A stretch of DNA of 64,000 nt from Dehalogenimonas sp. W (GTDB lineage Bacteria; Chloroflexota; Dehalococcoidia; Dehalococcoidales; Dehalococcoidaceae). The translations under genes and the position numbers were made by a program. The stretch spans positions 992,001 through 1,056,000 of the forward strand of contig NZ_CP146612.1 of the NCBI RefSeq assembly GCF_037094495.1, read 5' to 3'. The notes beneath the pieces were generated by a model. The model saw nothing but the letters and a program-made list of their open reading frames with translations. It was not told the DNA's origin and searched no databases. Of this stretch, positions 7,534 to 60,380 are shown piece after piece. Position 1 is the stretch's first letter, and every line of letters starts with the position of its first letter.

Positions 7534-7562
7534 TTGACATGACCGGCTTTGAACCCTATTAT
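7534..7562 (+). promoter_or_regulatory. Sigma-70-type promoter of the methyltransferase/cyclase/UbiA cluster
   Basis: TTGACA at 7534-7539, a 17-base spacer and TATTAT at 7557-7562. It predicts a start of transcription near 7569 and a leader of about 110 bases before the first gene. It separates the downstream cluster from gpsA as a distinct unit. Confidence 0.75.
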
Positions 7563-7678: not shown

Positions 7679-8443
7679 ATGGAGACAATCGCGCCGGTAC
7701 AAGACCCGGGTCTGGAATCCGAAGAAGCCAGAAAACGTAAGAAATACATGGTGGACCTGTTTGTGGTTCAGGCCAAAAACTATGACTTTCACGATGATAT
7801 TTACGGTTTTTACGCTCACCGTTTGTGGGTGAGGACCATGGTCAAAATCATAGAGAAGTTTATGAAGGGCAAAAAGCGGGCCGATATGCTGGATATGGGT
7901 TGCGGCACCGGGTTTGTGACCTTTAATGTGGCCCGTAAACTCCCCAGCATTGATATTGAATCATTTGACCTGTCCCCCGATATGATTGCCGTTGCCAAGG
8001 AACGCTATGAAAAGGGTTTCAAAGGCCGCAAAATCAAGTTCTGGGTGGCGGACGCTGAGATTCCGTTCGGGGTCAACAAATACGATATCGTCACCACGTC
8101 CTTCGCTTTCCGCAACTTTGCCAATAAGAACCTGGCGACCAAAAATGTATTCAATGCCCTTAAACCCGGCGGTATTTTCATTATTCAGGACCTGACCAAA
8201 CCGGAAAAACACCCGATGAAGGGCCTCTACGCTTTTTACATGAAATATATCCTGCCGATTATCGCCCGGATTCTCGGGACTGAGAAATCAGCCGCGGGCT
8301 GGCTCAAGAAGAGCACCGATTTTATGCCGAAAAATGCGCAGCTTCAGAAAATCCTGGAGGATGCCGGCATGGTCAACTGCTATTATAAAAGCCTGTCCGG
8401 CGGTATTGCCTGTATCGTCGTCGGCTACAAGCCGGAGGCTTAG
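7679..8443 (+). CDS. SAM-dependent methyltransferase, UbiE/MenG-like, copy 1
   Basis: A 254-residue class I methyltransferase. I chose the ATG at 7679 because GAAGGAG lies just before it; an in-frame codon at 7637 has no such site. The SAM-binding motif I is LDMGCGTGFVTF, with the acidic loop ESFDLSPDM and the post-motif LKPGGIFIIQDLTKPEK, which resembles UbiE/COQ5 proteins. It shares long identical stretches with the next gene (SFAFRNFANKNLA, NVFNALKPGGIFIIQD), so the two are a tandem duplication. First gene of the cluster; the substrate is unknown, but its neighbours suggest a prenylated ring compound. Confidence 0.85.
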   Translation: METIAPVQDPGLESEEARKRKKYMVDLFVVQAKNYDFHDDIYGFYAHRLWVRTMVKIIEKFMKGKKRADMLDMGCGTGFVTFNVARKLPSIDIESFDLSPDMIAVAKERYEKGFKGRKIKFWVADAEIPFGVNKYDIVTTSFAFRNFANKNLATKNVFNALKPGGIFIIQDLTKPEKHPMKGLYAFYMKYILPIIARILGTEKSAAGWLKKSTDFMPKNAQLQKILEDAGMVNCYYKSLSGGIACIVVGYKPEA

Positions 8444-8444
8444 C

Positions 8445-9218
8445 ATGGGGGAAGGGACGATAGCAGCGGGGCAGCACCTTCAAGACCCGGGTTTTGAGTC
8501 TGAAGCAGCCAAAAAGCGCAAAGCGTATATGCTGGAGCTTTTCGGCTATCAGGCCCCCAAGTATGATCTTCATGACGATATCATCGGTATGGGTATTCAT
8601 CGCCGGTGGGTCAAGGATGTCCTCAAGGTTATCGGTCATTATAAAAAAGACAAAACAGAACTGAAGATGCTGGATCTGGCCTGCGGCACCGGCTTCGTCA
8701 CCTTCAATACCACGCGCAATTTTCCGGAATTAAAGATTGATGCCTTTGACCTGGTGCCGGAAATGGTTGAGGTGGCGAAAAAACGTTACGACAAGGCCTT
8801 TAAGGGTAGGGACATTAATTTCTGGGTGGGCGATTCTGAAGTGCCTTACGGTGAGAATAAGTATGACATCATCACCACCTGTTTTGCCTTCCGTAATTTT
8901 GCCAATAAGAACCTGGCCGCACAGAATGTGTTCAAGGCGCTTAAGCCCGGCGGTATCTTTATCATTCAGGATATGACCAAGCCGGAAAAACAACCTTTGC
9001 GCGGTTTATATCTCTTTGCTCTGAAATACCTGTTGCCGGTCATCGGCACGATTCTGGGGACAGCCAAGGGGTCGCCGCGCTATCTTTATCATTCGGTGAT
9101 GTTGTTGCCGAAAAACACCGACATCGCCAAAATACTGACTGATAACGGTTTTACCGATGTATGGCACAAATACCAAAGCGGCGGTATGGGGACCGTTGTG
9201 GCGGGCTATAAGAAATGA
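8445..9218 (+). CDS. SAM-dependent methyltransferase, UbiE/MenG-like, copy 2
   Basis: A 257-residue paralogue of the preceding gene. The ATG at 8445, one base after the previous stop, aligns with the paralogue's N terminus (QDPGFESEAAKKRKAYM against QDPGLESEEARKRKKYM). Motif I is LDLACGTGFVTF; CFAFRNFANKNLA and LKPGGIFIIQDMTKPEK match copy 1 nearly word for word. Its stop overlaps the start of the cyclase gene (ATGA), so translation is coupled. Two related methyltransferases in a row suggest two methylations of one scaffold or of two intermediates; this is inference. Confidence 0.85.
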   Translation: MGEGTIAAGQHLQDPGFESEAAKKRKAYMLELFGYQAPKYDLHDDIIGMGIHRRWVKDVLKVIGHYKKDKTELKMLDLACGTGFVTFNTTRNFPELKIDAFDLVPEMVEVAKKRYDKAFKGRDINFWVGDSEVPYGENKYDIITTCFAFRNFANKNLAAQNVFKALKPGGIFIIQDMTKPEKQPLRGLYLFALKYLLPVIGTILGTAKGSPRYLYHSVMLLPKNTDIAKILTDNGFTDVWHKYQSGGMGTVVAGYKK

Positions 9219-10321
9219 AGAGGGACATGGCAGAATTACAGACCTTTAAATATGACATCGGCGGCGGACGCTTCCGTTCCATCTACCTGGGTCGCGACAT
9301 TCTGGACCAACTGGCCGATTGCGCGGGTGGTCTGGGCGCCGATAAGTTTTTCATCATTACCGATGACAACGTGGCCGGTGCTTTTCTGGAACCCGTCAAG
9401 GCGGAACTGTCGAAAGTAGCCGAAACCCATGCCCTGATATTTCCCGCCGGTGAACAATCCAAGACCCTGACCACGCTGGAAGAGCTGGGTGCCAAGGTGC
9501 TTGACGCCCGCGCCACCAAGTCCAGTGTGATTGTCTGTCTGGGCGGCGGCGTGGTGGGCAATCTCGGCGGTCTGCTTTCCGCCCTGCTGTTCCGGGGTAT
9601 CCGCTTTTTCCATATTCCCACCACCATGGTGGCCCAGATTGATTCGGCCATCGGGCAGAAGCAGGCGGTTAATTACAAAAGGGGCAAGAATCTCTTCGGG
9701 CAGTATTACCCGCCGGAATTCGTGTTTATTGACTTCGGTTTTCTGCGAAAACTGCCGGAGCGACAGATTAAAGCCGGGCTGGCTGAATCGGTTAAGCACG
9801 GTTTGTGTCAGGAAGAAACCTTTTTTGAATACATCAATCAGAGAGCGCCGGAGTTTTCCTGGGATGATATTGAGTATATCTCGGCCCACACTATTGAACT
9901 GAAACTGGAACTGCTGGTTATTGATCCGTATGAGGGCAAGCTGGATCCGCAATTGGAACTGGGCCATACCATCGGTCATGCGCTGGAGATCAGGAAAAAC
10001 GGCCAACTGCTGCACGGTGAATCCATCGCCATCGGCATGACAGTTGAATCCCGTATTTCGGTGGCTCAGGGTTTCATGGAACCGGAACTGGCCGAACGTA
10101 TAGAAGCTATTTTCCAGAAAATTGGTCTGCCGACCCGTATTCCGGCCGACATTTCCATTGATCAGATTTTGGAGACGCTCACCTTTGATAATAAGCGGCG
10201 TACCGCCATTAATGACTTTTTCCTCCTTGAAAAATTCGGTAGCTTCCACAAGGAGAACGGCAAGATTTCCTGCAAAGTTCCGGAGCCGCTGCTGAGACAG
10301 GTTCTTGAGCGCTGCTACTAG
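9215..10321 (+). CDS. Sugar-phosphate cyclase (AroB superfamily), not a typical dehydroquinate synthase
   Basis: An NAD- and metal-dependent cyclase of the 3-dehydroquinate synthase superfamily, 368 residues from the ATG at 9215 (a second ATG at 9227 follows GAGGG closely). It has the glycine-rich GGGVVGN (110-116), D143, K149, E191, K230, H251, H255 and H267, i.e. the core metal and phosphate-elimination residues. It differs from AroB where substrate is read: GGGVVGD becomes GGGVVGN, GGKTAVN becomes GQKQAVN, and the AroB Arg and Asn before LGHT are D244 and E248. As I recall the family, an Asn in the glycine loop, KQAVN and LExGHT are features of 2-deoxy-scyllo-inosose-synthase-type cyclases. 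So aroB is doubtful here. It sits between methyltransferases and a prenyltransferase. Confidence 0.8.
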   Translation: MKRDMAELQTFKYDIGGGRFRSIYLGRDILDQLADCAGGLGADKFFIITDDNVAGAFLEPVKAELSKVAETHALIFPAGEQSKTLTTLEELGAKVLDARATKSSVIVCLGGGVVGNLGGLLSALLFRGIRFFHIPTTMVAQIDSAIGQKQAVNYKRGKNLFGQYYPPEFVFIDFGFLRKLPERQIKAGLAESVKHGLCQEETFFEYINQRAPEFSWDDIEYISAHTIELKLELLVIDPYEGKLDPQLELGHTIGHALEIRKNGQLLHGESIAIGMTVESRISVAQGFMEPELAERIEAIFQKIGLPTRIPADISIDQILETLTFDNKRRTAINDFFLLEKFGSFHKENGKISCKVPEPLLRQVLERCY

Positions 10322-11231
10322 CCCGGTTGCGGTACCCTTTAATTACTGGGTACAGGCTGCCCGACTGAAATTTCTGCCGCAAGGCGTTCTGCCGGTCATT
10401 ATCGGCGGCGCGGCGGCCGTGTCGCAAGAGGTTTTTAACCCCGGTTATTTCGTGCTGGCTTTTATCGCGGCAGCCGCGGTGCAAGTCGGTCTGACCATGT
10501 TTAACGATACACTGGATTTCCAGTACGGCACCGACCGTTCAACCCCCGGGGCCAAGAACCCCTTTTCCGGTGGCTCCGGTGTGTTGACCACCGGCCGTAT
10601 TCAGCCGCGACAGGCGATGCAGGTAATCATCGGGCTATATATACTGGCTCTGGTCATCGGTATTTACTTCGCCTTTGTCGTCGGCATCGCCAGCCTGGGT
10701 ATTGCGGCGATTGGGGCGGCTATCTCCATTGTTTATTCGGCTCGGCCATTTCGGCTGGCTTATCGAGGCCTGGGGGAGCTGGCTATGCTGATCGGCTACG
10801 GCCCGGTGATAACCGGCTGGGCTTATTATATCCACGCAGGGGTGTTGACCAGTGATATCCTGTTGATTGGGCTGATTCCGGGCTTGAGCATGTGGACGAT
10901 GATTCTGATTAATGAAATACCGGACTATGCTGAAGACCGGCAGGCGGGTAAGAAAAACCTGACCTACCGGCTGGGGCCGGCCGGGGCTAAAAATCTTTTT
11001 ATCGGGTCACTGGCCGGGATTTATATTTTTATTGCCTGGTTATTGATAATCGGCGTCTTGCCCGGAGCTGCCGGGCTGGTTTTCGGCGGTCTGCCGCTGG
11101 CTTTTGCCGCCGCCCGCGCCGCCCATCTTCATTATTCCAATCCGCTTAAAGTAGCCGCGGCCAACAAATATATGGTTCTGGTCTATTTTGTTACCAATAC
11201 GGCGGTGGCCGCAGGATTATTAATAGGATGA
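10305..11231 (+). CDS. UbiA-type prenyltransferase (MenA-like)
   Basis: Membrane enzyme that transfers a polyprenyl group from its diphosphate to a ring acceptor. The two Asp-rich motifs are intact: NDTLDFQYGTD (67-77) and NEIPDYAEDR (203-212), which bind Mg-diphosphate. Eight or nine hydrophobic segments fit the UbiA fold, and SARPFRLAYRGLGELAML resembles MenA. The likely start is a TTG at 10305, overlapping the cyclase gene by 17 bases. The acceptor is unknown: no menaquinone genes are visible around it, only a cyclase and methyltransferases. Confidence 0.88.
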   Translation: MSAATSPVAVPFNYWVQAARLKFLPQGVLPVIIGGAAAVSQEVFNPGYFVLAFIAAAAVQVGLTMFNDTLDFQYGTDRSTPGAKNPFSGGSGVLTTGRIQPRQAMQVIIGLYILALVIGIYFAFVVGIASLGIAAIGAAISIVYSARPFRLAYRGLGELAMLIGYGPVITGWAYYIHAGVLTSDILLIGLIPGLSMWTMILINEIPDYAEDRQAGKKNLTYRLGPAGAKNLFIGSLAGIYIFIAWLLIIGVLPGAAGLVFGGLPLAFAAARAAHLHYSNPLKVAAANKYMVLVYFVTNTAVAAGLLIG

Positions 11232-11242
11232 GAGGTTGAGCC

Positions 11243-11845
11243 ATGGTAGAACCTAAATTTTTTGAGACGATTGCTCCGGCATATGACTTTCTGACCAGGT
11301 TGTTCATGGGCGGGACTTATGAAAGCATGCGTAAACGGATGCTTAACGAAGATACCTCCCATATGGATATTCTGGACCTGTGCTGCGGCACCGGTTATAT
11401 CTGTAACACGATTGAAGCCAGACGGATAGTTGGCTTGGATCAATCCGACGCTATGCTGGCGCGTAACGCCAAGGTGAAGCGGGAAAACAAAACGCTCATC
11501 AAAGGCAATGCCTACCAAATGGATTTCAAGCCGGAAGAATTTGACCGGGTCTACAATTCCAGTGCCTCTCATGAGTTTAAACTTTTTTCGCGTCTGATTC
11601 AGAAGAGCTACGAGATACTCAAGCCGGGCGGCAAGTTAATCATTTTTGATATTTACCAGCCGAAAAACCCGATTCTTTCCTTTTTCATGAATACCTTTGT
11701 CCGTTATGTGGTTGAGCGCGGCATTATGTTTGTGCATACCAAGGATGAATGGCGTAAAATGCTTCAGGATGCCGGTTTTATAATTGAAGAGCTGGACGTG
11801 GTTCGGGGATTGTATATATTCGCCCGGGTCAGGAAGCCGGAATAA
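11243..11845 (+). CDS. SAM-dependent methyltransferase, third of the cluster
   Basis: A 200-residue class I methyltransferase, shorter than and clearly different from the two upstream paralogues. Motif I is LDLCCGTGYI and is followed by VGLDQSDAML; LKPGGKLIIFDIYQPK is the post-motif. The N terminus FFETIAPAYDFLTRLFMGGTYE resembles UbiE-like proteins. It starts 11 bases after the prenyltransferase stop and ends the five-gene unit. A substrate related to the prenylated product is inferred from position. Confidence 0.85.
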   Translation: MVEPKFFETIAPAYDFLTRLFMGGTYESMRKRMLNEDTSHMDILDLCCGTGYICNTIEARRIVGLDQSDAMLARNAKVKRENKTLIKGNAYQMDFKPEEFDRVYNSSASHEFKLFSRLIQKSYEILKPGGKLIIFDIYQPKNPILSFFMNTFVRYVVERGIMFVHTKDEWRKMLQDAGFIIEELDVVRGLYIFARVRKPE

Positions 11846-11918: not shown

Positions 11919-12245
11919 ATGGGATTGACACTGGGTGAAGCCATCAGGCACATTGTCAACAAAAACTATGCGATAGTGTCCGCCGACCTCTTTGATGAGT
12001 GTCTGGGACGCAAGTATGAGGGAACTGCCAATGTGCCGGCCAAAGAAAAAACGACCTGGCCGATGAAAATTGAAGAAAAGCTCAAGGAAGTACACCAGGT
12101 GAAGTTGGGCGAGGGCGAGTTCAAATGGACCCGTCAGGATATTGGCTCCGATACCTACCTTGACGTCAAACTCTGGCTGGAGGATGAACTGGGCTTGCCG
12201 CATAAGGAAGTTGACCGCGGTTTCAAGCTGGGTGTAAGCAATTAG
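11919..12245 (+). CDS. Conserved-looking hypothetical protein, 108 residues
   Basis: I do not recognise this family. The protein is soluble, charged, with no Cys and no signal peptide. An AAAGGAGGG ribosome site about 20 bases upstream, a full promoter and a downstream terminator show it is a real single-gene unit. The first third (GLTLGEAIRHIVNKNYAIVSADLFDECLG) is probably helical, and the C-terminal half contains several Trp-anchored short strands and a KLWLEDELGL helix. Confidence 0.7.
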   Translation: MGLTLGEAIRHIVNKNYAIVSADLFDECLGRKYEGTANVPAKEKTTWPMKIEEKLKEVHQVKLGEGEFKWTRQDIGSDTYLDVKLWLEDELGLPHKEVDRGFKLGVSN

Positions 12246-12267
12246 ACCAGCTTATTCAGGTTAATTG

Positions 12268-12300
12268 ACCGGCCGCCATGAGGCGGCTGGTTTTATTTTA
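12268..12300 (+). terminator. Intrinsic terminator
   Basis: A GC-rich stem (ACCGGCCGCC / GGCGGCTGGT) with an ATGA loop, followed by TTTTATTTTA. It ends the 108-residue gene. Confidence 0.85.
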
Positions 12301-13485: not shown

Positions 13486-14895
13486 ATGACAGTCAGGTTC
13501 CACTCAACAATTTCCCGCCGTGATTTTATGAAAGGACTCGGGTTGACCGGCGCCGGGTTAGGTGTTGCGGCGGCTGCAACTCCCGGTTTTCATGACCTGG
13601 ACGAGTTAGTCGGTTCGTATGAACAAAAGCGTGATTGGTGGATCAGGGAACGGGATTATGAGGACATTACTACTGAAGTAGATTGGGATGTTTATCAGGC
13701 ATATGACCCTAAAACTCACCCCGCAGTGCCGGTCTCGGATGCAGTCAGGGCGGCTACTCAGGCACGGGTGGCCAAAGACAAGTCCGAGGGACTTGCAGGG
13801 AGGCTGCCCGGTTATGATCGGCGCGGCATGGCATGGTACTCCGCCTCAGGTCAATTTAACTTCAGCGTGCCGTGGACCGGTTCCAACAGTTACTGGAAAC
13901 CTTCAGAAGGTGATAATGCTGTTCCGTATAATGAAAGTTCCGATTATAACCTTCAGGTGTTGAGGGCTGCCTTTCATTCATTCGGCACACCGGCGGTCGG
14001 GGTGATTGAATTGAACGAACACATGAAGCGCTTGTTCAATAAAGGACTGTGCGTGTGGGAAGATATTGATGAACCGTTCCAGGATGAACAGAAACTGTAC
14101 CATATACCCAACAAATGCAAATGGCTCGTGGTTTGGGAGAGTCAGATGACTCAAAGTCAGGGCACGTTTGGGTATTCCAAAAACCCTGATACTCTCAGCG
14201 GCTACGGTTCATCTGTGCCTTTGGGCAGAATGGATATGCAGGGTTATGACTGGGCCGGATCGGTATGGAACCGCGCCACTTCTTTTATCAAGGGACTGGG
14301 ATACTATGCTCTCAGGCCTGGTGGTATGATGCCATCGCAAAATACTGCTTATGGCGTTTTTGCTGGCCTTTCCGAGCAAGGGCGGCCTCACTATCGCATG
14401 AGCCCCGGTTGGGGGCTTTGCAGCCGCTACGCTGATTCGGCGATTACTGATATGCCTTTAGCCCCGACCAAACCGATTGATTTTGGCGGTCACCGCTTTT
14501 GTAATACCTGCAAACGTTGTGGTGAGGTCTGCCCGAGTCAGTCAATTGACATGTCCGATGAGCCCAGTTGGGATACGGTAGTGCCCCGTAATAATCCTGG
14601 TATCAAGGCCTTCTGGATGAACTGGGATACCTGTTCCGGTTTCGGCGCTCCGGTGAACTGCGGAATTTGTCAACCGACCTGCCCCTTTAACCATCCGTCC
14701 GAGGCCATTATTCATCCGGTTGTCAGGGCTGTCGCCGGCAATACCGGTATTTTTAACGGTTTCTTTGCCACAATGGATAGAACCTTTGGATACGGAAAAG
14801 TGCGTTCTGAGGATGAAATGGAAGCCTGGTGGACCCGAGACCTTTCAACATTCAAGGGCGATACCATCAATGGTGCCGGTAAATTTAACTGGTAG
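13486..14895 (+). CDS. rdhA: Reductive dehalogenase catalytic subunit without RdhB partner
   Basis: Cobamide- and Fe-S-dependent terminal reductase of organohalide respiration, exported to the outer face of the membrane by the Tat system. The twin-arginine signal SRRDFMKGLGL is at residues 10-20. Cluster 1 is C339-x2-C342-x2-C345-x3-C349-P; cluster 2 is C383-x8-C392-x2-C395-x3-C399-P. The 469-residue length suits full-length RdhA of this group. A good AAGGAG site precedes the ATG. No rdhB follows: a strong terminator comes at once, so membrane anchoring would need another protein. The divergent MarR gene is the likely regulator. The halogenated substrate cannot be predicted. Confidence 0.95.
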   Translation: MTVRFHSTISRRDFMKGLGLTGAGLGVAAAATPGFHDLDELVGSYEQKRDWWIRERDYEDITTEVDWDVYQAYDPKTHPAVPVSDAVRAATQARVAKDKSEGLAGRLPGYDRRGMAWYSASGQFNFSVPWTGSNSYWKPSEGDNAVPYNESSDYNLQVLRAAFHSFGTPAVGVIELNEHMKRLFNKGLCVWEDIDEPFQDEQKLYHIPNKCKWLVVWESQMTQSQGTFGYSKNPDTLSGYGSSVPLGRMDMQGYDWAGSVWNRATSFIKGLGYYALRPGGMMPSQNTAYGVFAGLSEQGRPHYRMSPGWGLCSRYADSAITDMPLAPTKPIDFGGHRFCNTCKRCGEVCPSQSIDMSDEPSWDTVVPRNNPGIKAFWMNWDTCSGFGAPVNCGICQPTCPFNHPSEAIIHPVVRAVAGNTGIFNGFFATMDRTFGYGKVRSEDEMEAWWTRDLSTFKGDTINGAGKFNW

Positions 14896-44964: not shown

Positions 44965-46100
<1,136 letters not shown>

Positions 46101-53224: not shown

Positions 53225-54628
53225 ATGGGTAAATTCCATCACACGGTAAGCCGCCGTGATTTCATGAAAGGGCTCGGTCTGTCGGCCGCCGGACTCGGCG
53301 CCGCCACAGTCGCTAATCCCGGCTTCCATGACCTGGACGAAGTCACGGCCTCCGCCGGCGGCGAACTTAAGCGCGCCTGGTGGGTCAAGGAAAATGATTT
53401 TGGCAATCCGGCCACCTTGGAAATCGACTGGAGTCTGGTTAAAAGACCGGACCGCTCCAAGATCTCCACTTTCCCTTATCGCAACAGCACTCATCCCACT
53501 GCCGTTTACAACAAGGAACATTTTGCTGAGTTACAGAAATCAGTCATTCAGCACGCCGCCCCGGATTGGGAAGCTGACAGTATTCAGGACTTGGCCATGA
53601 GCGGCGCCACTCTGGCGCTCCGCTTCTACAACTACTACACCCCCGCCGGCAAAACCATGTTCATGGGCTATCAAAACTCCCCGACCCCGGCTGACCGCAA
53701 CATGGCGCGCTGGGAAGGCAGCCCTGAAGAGAATATCCGCCTGCTCCGTCACGCTTCCCGCTTCTTCGGTGCTTCCAGCCTGAGCGTTACTTTACTTGAT
53801 GAAGACACCAAGAAACTGATCTTTGAAAAAGAATCCAATGGTAAGGCTTATGTCTTCCGTGATGTCGCCGATGTTGAAGAAACGGCGACGGAATACATCA
53901 TTCCCAACCGATTCAAATACATGATTACCTGGACCCACCTCCAGGCCACCGAGTTGACCCTGCGCGAGCCTTCCACCCTTGGTCAAAGCGCCAGCAATAT
54001 GGCCTACAGCCGCTTACCTTTCATCTCCGTTCAGATGCAGGAATTCATTCGCGGCCTGGGTTACCACGGCATCAACGCCTGGAGCGGCGAGATGGCGTCA
54101 TCCAATCCCTTCGGTGTGCTGTCCGGCGCCGGTGAACACGGCCGCTTTGGTTTTGCGGTCATCACCCCGGAACTGGGTTCTATGGTACGCGGTATGTGCC
54201 GCATGCTGACCGACCTGCCCCTGGAGCCCACCAAGCCGATTGACGCCGGTATATCCCGGTTCTGTCTGACCTGTGCCACCTGCGCCAAATTCTGTGCCTT
54301 CGGCGCGCTGTCGCTGGAAGATCCTTCCTGGGAATCCCTGAAGGAAGCCGATACCGGCGTGCCTTACAGCCCGGACGGGTTCAAGGGCTGGCGTCTTAAC
54401 ACCGTTAAATGCGCTAACTGTACCGCCTGTCAGGCCTTCTGCCCGTTCAACTCGTCGGGCCGCTCCAGCTTCATTCACGAGTTCGTAGCCGGTACTTCTT
54501 CCATCACCCCGATCTTCAACGGCTTCTTTGCCAACATGGAAGAAGCCATGCACTACGGCAACAAAGATCCGCGGACCTGGTGGGAGAATGAAGAGTACCT
54601 GTACGGCATCAATCCCAAATTCATCTAA
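53225..54628 (+). CDS. rdhA: Reductive dehalogenase catalytic subunit with RdhB partner
   Basis: Tat-exported cobamide/Fe-S reductase of organohalide respiration, 467 residues. The signal SRRDFMKGLGL is identical to that of the 13.5-kb gene. Cluster 1 is C347-x2-C350-x2-C353-x3-C357, followed by Ala instead of the usual Pro; cluster 2 is a regular C396-x2-C399-x2-C402-x3-C406-P. AGAGAGGG precedes the ATG. rdhB follows after 32 bases, so this is a complete rdhAB operon. No regulator gene is adjacent. Substrate cannot be read from sequence. Confidence 0.96.
   Translation: MGKFHHTVSRRDFMKGLGLSAAGLGAATVANPGFHDLDEVTASAGGELKRAWWVKENDFGNPATLEIDWSLVKRPDRSKISTFPYRNSTHPTAVYNKEHFAELQKSVIQHAAPDWEADSIQDLAMSGATLALRFYNYYTPAGKTMFMGYQNSPTPADRNMARWEGSPEENIRLLRHASRFFGASSLSVTLLDEDTKKLIFEKESNGKAYVFRDVADVEETATEYIIPNRFKYMITWTHLQATELTLREPSTLGQSASNMAYSRLPFISVQMQEFIRGLGYHGINAWSGEMASSNPFGVLSGAGEHGRFGFAVITPELGSMVRGMCRMLTDLPLEPTKPIDAGISRFCLTCATCAKFCAFGALSLEDPSWESLKEADTGVPYSPDGFKGWRLNTVKCANCTACQAFCPFNSSGRSSFIHEFVAGTSSITPIFNGFFANMEEAMHYGNKDPRTWWENEEYLYGINPKFI

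Positions 54629-59027: not shown

Positions 59028-60380
<1,353 letters not shown>

Follow-up and report, generated by a model that had tools for sequence, protein, structure and literature searches.

A gene of Dehalogenimonas sp. W that routine annotation would mislabel as aroB is the third of five genes in an operon that otherwise encodes a prenyltransferase and three methyltransferases, and this raises the question of what the encoded cyclase makes and what the operon is for. The window analysed, meaning the whole stretch of 64,000 nucleotides under study, corresponds to positions 992001-1056000 of the complete 1.77-Mb genome, and the coordinates given below are window positions unless another locus is named.

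The operon and its neighbouring signals

The operon, which the earlier note on this DNA passes over, tells more than the cyclase does by itself. It is arranged in the order MT1-MT2-CYC-UbiA-MT3 and is flanked by two candidate signals:

7534..7562, forward strand: promoter-like site TTGACA-17-TATTAT upstream of the operon; 11/12 consensus bases, a consensus match only
7679..8443, forward strand: MT1, UbiE/Coq5-like SAM methyltransferase, 254 aa; ATG at 7679 with GGAGAG upstream
8445..9218, forward strand: MT2, UbiE-like SAM methyltransferase, 257 aa; paralogue of MT1 (58% identity)
9215..10321, forward strand: CYC, predicted sugar phosphate cyclase of the branch related to 2-deoxy-scyllo-inosose synthase (DOIS), 368 aa; ATG start, one open frame, overlaps MT2 by 4 bases
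10305..11231, forward strand: UbiA-superfamily prenyltransferase, MenA/UBIAD1-like, 308 aa; overlaps CYC by 17 bases
11243..11845, forward strand: MT3, SAM methyltransferase, 200 aa; about 24% identical to MT1 and MT2
12267..12292, forward strand: terminator-like hairpin with T tail downstream of the operon; 11-pair stem, 8 GC

The start of MT2 was set at 8445 in place of a longer mechanical ORF start at 8334. Once the gene boundaries are taken from the sequence, neighbouring genes of the operon either overlap or are separated by no more than about 11 bases. Promoter-like sites of the kind listed were found 12 times in the region versus 6.2 expected, and the number of terminator-like sites was near the shuffled expectation. 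An antisense ORF (9236-10249) lies opposite the cyclase frame, and a small ORF of roughly 100 codons (about 11920-12246), similar in several genomes of the genus, is located between MT3 and yqeY, ahead of the hairpin.

Among solved structures, MT1 has its best relative in 4obw, a benzoquinol methylase of the Coq5 type (E 2.6e-21), and the UbiA protein in UBIAD1. Both Asp-rich motifs of the UbiA protein, NDTLDFQYGTD and NEIPDYAED, are intact and invariant in 6/6 aligned sequences. UbiA enzymes normally prenylate aromatic acceptors; a dehydratase able to aromatise an inosose was not found among the operon genes.

Separation of the cyclase from dehydroquinate synthase

Diagnostic residues were compared in a 44-sequence alignment of the cyclase, the aroB product of the same genome, dehydroquinate synthases (DHQS) from the PDB and DOIS from the PDB, in which 18 rows were DHQS and 14 were orthologues 65–100% identical to the query cyclase. 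An earlier note on this DNA had claimed that the metal and core residues of the family remain and that the residues reading the substrate are changed, and the alignment bears out both points. E191, H251, H267, K149 and K230 occupy the conserved core positions and are invariant in 14/14 orthologues. The fold and the NAD and metal residues are common to the cyclase and AroB. The substrate Arg and Asn of AroB ahead of GHT (R..LNxGHT), found in 18/18 DHQS rows, are replaced by Asp244 and Glu248 in 14/14 orthologues. The glycine loop reads GVVGN, with N116 where DHQS has Asp, and the Lys loop reads KQAVN versus K[TV]AVN elsewhere, both invariant in the 14 orthologues. N116, Q150 and E248 in fact differ from all 18 DHQS rows. 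Because the named residues are invariant in 14 orthologues, they are not attributable to sequencing error or chance.

The cyclase scored 277.1 bits against the AroB equivalog model TIGR01357, below the curated cut-off of 305, and a canonical aroB located elsewhere in the same genome scored 375.4 bits. The latter stands in a DAHP synthase-aroB-aroD-aroE run, recognised from translations, and its product is 31% identical to the cyclase. The organism therefore does not depend on the cyclase gene as its only aroB candidate. In a maximum likelihood phylogeny of sugar phosphate cyclases, the 14 orthologues and DOIS were split from DHQS, aminoDHQS, EEVS and EboD with a support of 100/99, placing the cyclase outside the DHQS clade. 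With long branches removed, the split between cyclase plus DOIS and DHQS was supported at 100/100, and a single clade of cyclase and DHQS was rejected by the AU test (p 0.00024). The earlier note's claim that aroB is the wrong label for this gene is thus well supported by the cut-off, the tree, the AU test and the separate canonical aroB in its shikimate run, and neither of the two outcomes that the note named as refuting it was observed.

Relation to 2-deoxy-scyllo-inosose synthase

DOIS builds the ring of aminoglycoside antibiotics from glucose phosphate. The references used for this enzyme were BtrC (PDB 2D2X/2GRU) and three proteins of the DOIS type encoded on plasmids, two of which, from Sodalis and Streptomyces, are annotated as DOIS. 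The earlier note had named features of the DOIS type, and direct comparison with these four proteins in the alignment confirmed them: N116 of the GN loop, Q150 of KQAVN, E248 and D325-N326-K327-R328 (DNKR) are common to the cyclase and the DOIS rows. Furthermore, Y164-Y165 (YYPP) are also present in BtrC, and E248 corresponds to the position of BtrC E243. The cyclase nevertheless differs from DOIS in having Gly147 and His195 (14/14 orthologues) at positions where Ser and Asn are constant in the four DOIS rows, and in having Asp244, unlike DOIS at that position.

The trees give the same picture of a joint branch with DOIS on which the cyclase nonetheless forms a separate clade beside the DOIS group. 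A cyclase from an NRPS region of Clostridia is 39% identical to the cyclase and shares most of the DOIS residue set. Grouping of DOIS and this Clostridia sequence to the exclusion of the cyclase received moderate support only (90/83, long branches removed), and a clade of the cyclase and the four DOIS without the Clostridia sequence was not rejected by the AU test (p 0.10). Compared with 4P53, the cyclase has other residues at many of the alignment positions considered, including 116, 150, 248 and 252, and 4P53 was placed on the opposite side of the 100/99 split. In a Clostridia MAG, a cyclase with the DOIS signature lies directly downstream of long NRPS genes (L049, 7914-9053), a locus that possibly specifies an inosose-containing peptide.

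An AlphaFold model of the cyclase (pLDDT 84, pTM 0.86) matches the DHQS and DOIS folds over nearly its full length, with 354 residues matched to DOIS 2gru at Z 36.5 and an rmsd of 2.8. The structure comparison cannot tell DOIS and DHQS apart, as every member of the sugar phosphate cyclase family matches the model (Z 31–41). Loops 150-159 and 241-245 of the model, which hold some of the positions of interest, are of low confidence.

The cyclase is accordingly described here as a predicted NAD- and metal-dependent enzyme of the DOIS-related branch, forming a clade of its own beside DOIS. Its product is likely, though not certain given this separate clade and residues Gly147 and His195, to be of the inosose type.

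Conservation and distribution of the operon

Orthologues of the cyclase (65–100% identity) were found in 14/61 genomes searched, its own included, while the remaining genomes gave either no match or matches no higher than about 35% identity. The five genes occur in the same order in eight genomes of the genus, in three genomes of a second genus of Dehalococcoidaceae, presumably Dehalococcoides, and in one further genome (G022). Contigs of two more (G035 and G059) end within the operon, with the gene order agreeing as far as they reach. The operon is found in Dehalococcoidaceae and three near relatives, three families in all, and its conservation partly reflects descent because the compared genomes are related. 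Genes of the operon overlap or lie close together in most orthologue-bearing genomes; the UbiA-MT3 gap is larger in some genomes of the genus, reaching about 500 bases. The upstream block rluD-lspA-argF-der-plsY-gpsA is common to only some of the operon genomes, and gpsA, der and argF are not kept as neighbours in several of them.

At a threshold of E 1e-80, only Dehalococcoidaceae and one distant match (G068, 283 bits) passed in a sample of 400 genomes of the phylum, and the operon was not found elsewhere in this sample. The match in G068 lacks Glu248, and its surroundings hold no other gene of the operon. This Chloroflexota cyclase (L061, 9329-10495, reverse strand) sits on a long branch and carries Asn in the glycine loop and KQALN, has the Glu248 context replaced by KQYGHT, and counts an SDR-like ORF among its neighbours. 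In a sample of 398 Bacillota genomes, the eleven next matches inspected besides the query Clostridia genome all carry the R..N signature of DHQS, and the loci of roughly 4 kb surrounding these eleven contain none of the other operon genes. Viral contigs scanned for cyclase relatives yielded none. In a scan of a contig collection, the reach of which is limited by its use of two short patterns, the cyclase relatives in named records were from Dehalococcoidales or Chloroflexi MAGs. No mention of a D. mccartyi version of the operon was found in the mostly open literature consulted, and an earlier mention is possible.

Proposed pathway and alternative explanations

On balance, the product of the five-gene operon is probably a membrane lipid derived from a cyclitol and carrying methyl groups and a polyprenyl chain, in which case the cyclase, being related to DOIS and not a DHQS, would close a hexose phosphate to an inosose-type ring. 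Glucose 6-phosphate would be the first choice of substrate and heptulose phosphate the second. An inosose-type carbocyclic ketone would be formed by the oxidation, phosphate elimination, re-reduction and aldol closure usual for the family. Judging from the neighbouring genes, the ring or a derivative of it would receive a polyprenyl chain from the UbiA-type prenyltransferase, and the three UbiE-like methyltransferases could carry out up to three methylations of the ring lipid. Also in favour of this reading are the single UbiA-family match of the genome, which is that of the operon, its single polyprenyl synthase match and the lack of recognisable DHNA supply genes described below. Against it stand the usual preference of UbiA enzymes for aromatic acceptors and the reported lack of quinones in Dehalococcoides membranes (PMC10772276). 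The substrate, the order of steps, the product and a role in organohalide respiration are what we infer from the enzyme family and the gene neighbourhood.

The cyclase could alternatively be a true 2-deoxy-scyllo-inosose synthase that supplies a soluble cyclitol such as an osmolyte, a cofactor or a glycoside precursor, with the UbiA protein and the methyltransferases acting elsewhere, for example on salvaged quinone precursors. The residue set common to the cyclase and DOIS is consistent with this, as is the clade with the four DOIS that the AU test did not reject. We nonetheless regard it as unlikely since the five-gene order, with overlapping starts and stops, is kept across three families, which favours one pathway. 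DOIS pathways moreover contain aminotransferases and glycosyltransferases, neither of which was found in its aminoglycoside kind among the operon genes, where a prenyltransferase and methyltransferases are present instead.

Salvage of menaquinone from imported DHNA is a rather improbable explanation, in which the UbiA and UbiE-like genes would act as MenA and MenG and the cyclase would supply an unrelated metabolite. In its favour, the UbiA protein has its best family matches among MenA-like models and UBIAD1 as its best solved relative, and MT1 and MT2 resemble UbiE/Coq5. A search of the genome for DHNA and futalosine route genes, comprising MenD and PF02621 (MqnA/D family), gave no match to PF02621 and no convincing MenD, the best score being 74.5 versus 244.2 bits, so that DHNA supply genes are not recognisable. 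The UbiA protein falls, however, below the cut-off of every MenA model, with 80.9 versus 102.15 for TIGR00751 and 128.1 versus 264 for PRK06080.1-3. Three methyltransferases also exceed the need of one C-methylation, and the cyclase is left unexplained. Finally, Dehalococcoides is described as respiring without quinones, none having been detected in its membranes, and its respiration is insensitive to HQNO (PMC10772276). In other Dehalococcoidia, UbiA-like domains were observed in ORFs of about 510–520 aa (L096, 997-2538, and similar ORFs in L095-L108), with an N-terminal extension ahead of the prenyltransferase domain in the L096 ORF.

A sugar phosphate cyclase and a UbiA-family prenyltransferase also share one conserved operon in the ebo system (EboD and EboC), for which an isoprenoid-cyclitol hybrid product has been proposed (PMC5133447). 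By the same logic, the cyclase could form a C7 cyclitol resembling valiolone from sedoheptulose 7-phosphate, the reaction put forward for EboD, and the operon would be a diverged ebo-like system. This is very unlikely given that the cyclase belongs to another branch, away from EEVS and EboD in the tree, and scored 169.9 against the EboD model NF004852 versus a cut-off of 333, whereas the EboD of a Chloroflexota ebo operon scored 579.4. The operon UbiA likewise gave no match to the EboC model NF035940, nor was there one at 1e-3 in the Dehalococcoidaceae genomes listed. EboA/B/E/F are absent from the cyclase operon, which has three methyltransferases instead. The two models rule out membership of the cyclase and the UbiA protein in ebo. 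An ebo-type operon of another Chloroflexota genome (EboF, C, E, B and D-like; L082, 4452-10203, reverse strand) served as outgroup. BE-40644 provides a precedent for the proposed lipid route in that a cyclitol ring made by an EEVS is prenylated by a UbiA-superfamily enzyme (PMC5133447), although that cyclase is of the EEVS type, the ring is C7 and the product is an actinobacterial secondary metabolite, unlike the case of the cyclase operon.

A second, diverged dehydroquinate synthase, for which the identical fold and the Pfam DHQ_synthase match could be cited, is ruled out for practical purposes as an AroB paralogue by the sub-cut-off score, the residues, the tree with its AU test and the separate canonical aroB.

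Association with reductive dehalogenases and possible redox role

Two reductive dehalogenase genes with Tat signals are located in the window, at 13486-14895 and 53225-54628 (210 and 274 bits against TIGR02486), the former next to a divergent MarR-like gene and downstream of the operon at a distance of about 1.6 kb. The window also carries two genes for RNA-guided transposases of the IS110 family, at 45141-46100 and 59028-60155. The genome as a whole has 33 matches to the reductive dehalogenase family. Between 9 and 51 matches were found in 13/14 operon genomes, the exception being G035 (87% complete) with none, and 0–5 in 16 genomes without the operon; as these counts include matches below the cut-off and the genomes are related, the tie is an association and not proof.

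A quinone pocket with no known ligand is predicted in OmeB, a subunit of the respiratory complex (PMC10772276). Ubiquinone-8 in Dehalococcoides was the subject of a 2005 report, as cited in PMC10772276. A survey counts Chloroflexota among the many lineages in which none of the known quinone pathways is present and raises the possibility that other quinones await discovery (PMC13386864). Since catechol can be obtained from DOI by chemical conversion (PMC6170601), an aromatic ring could, on chemical grounds, conceivably be reached from an inosose; an enzyme for such a route was not identified here. A redox function of the operon lipid is speculative. Specifically, it is doubtful, if conceivable, that organohalide-respiring Dehalococcoidales possess a quinone-like redox lipid with a ring drawn from sugar phosphate via the inosose-type cyclase and not from chorismate, which after prenylation and methylation by the operon could fill the OmeB site.

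Dehalococcoides and Dehalogenimonas, which are central to the clean-up of chlorinated solvents, are described as organisms whose respiration does not involve quinones. In these supposedly quinone-free organohalide respirers, a lineage-restricted operon pairs prenyltransferase and methyltransferase genes of the quinone type with a cyclase that is likely of the inosose type. Beside the survey's suggestion of quinones yet to be discovered (PMC13386864) and the predicted OmeB pocket (PMC10772276), the operon represents a concrete five-gene candidate.
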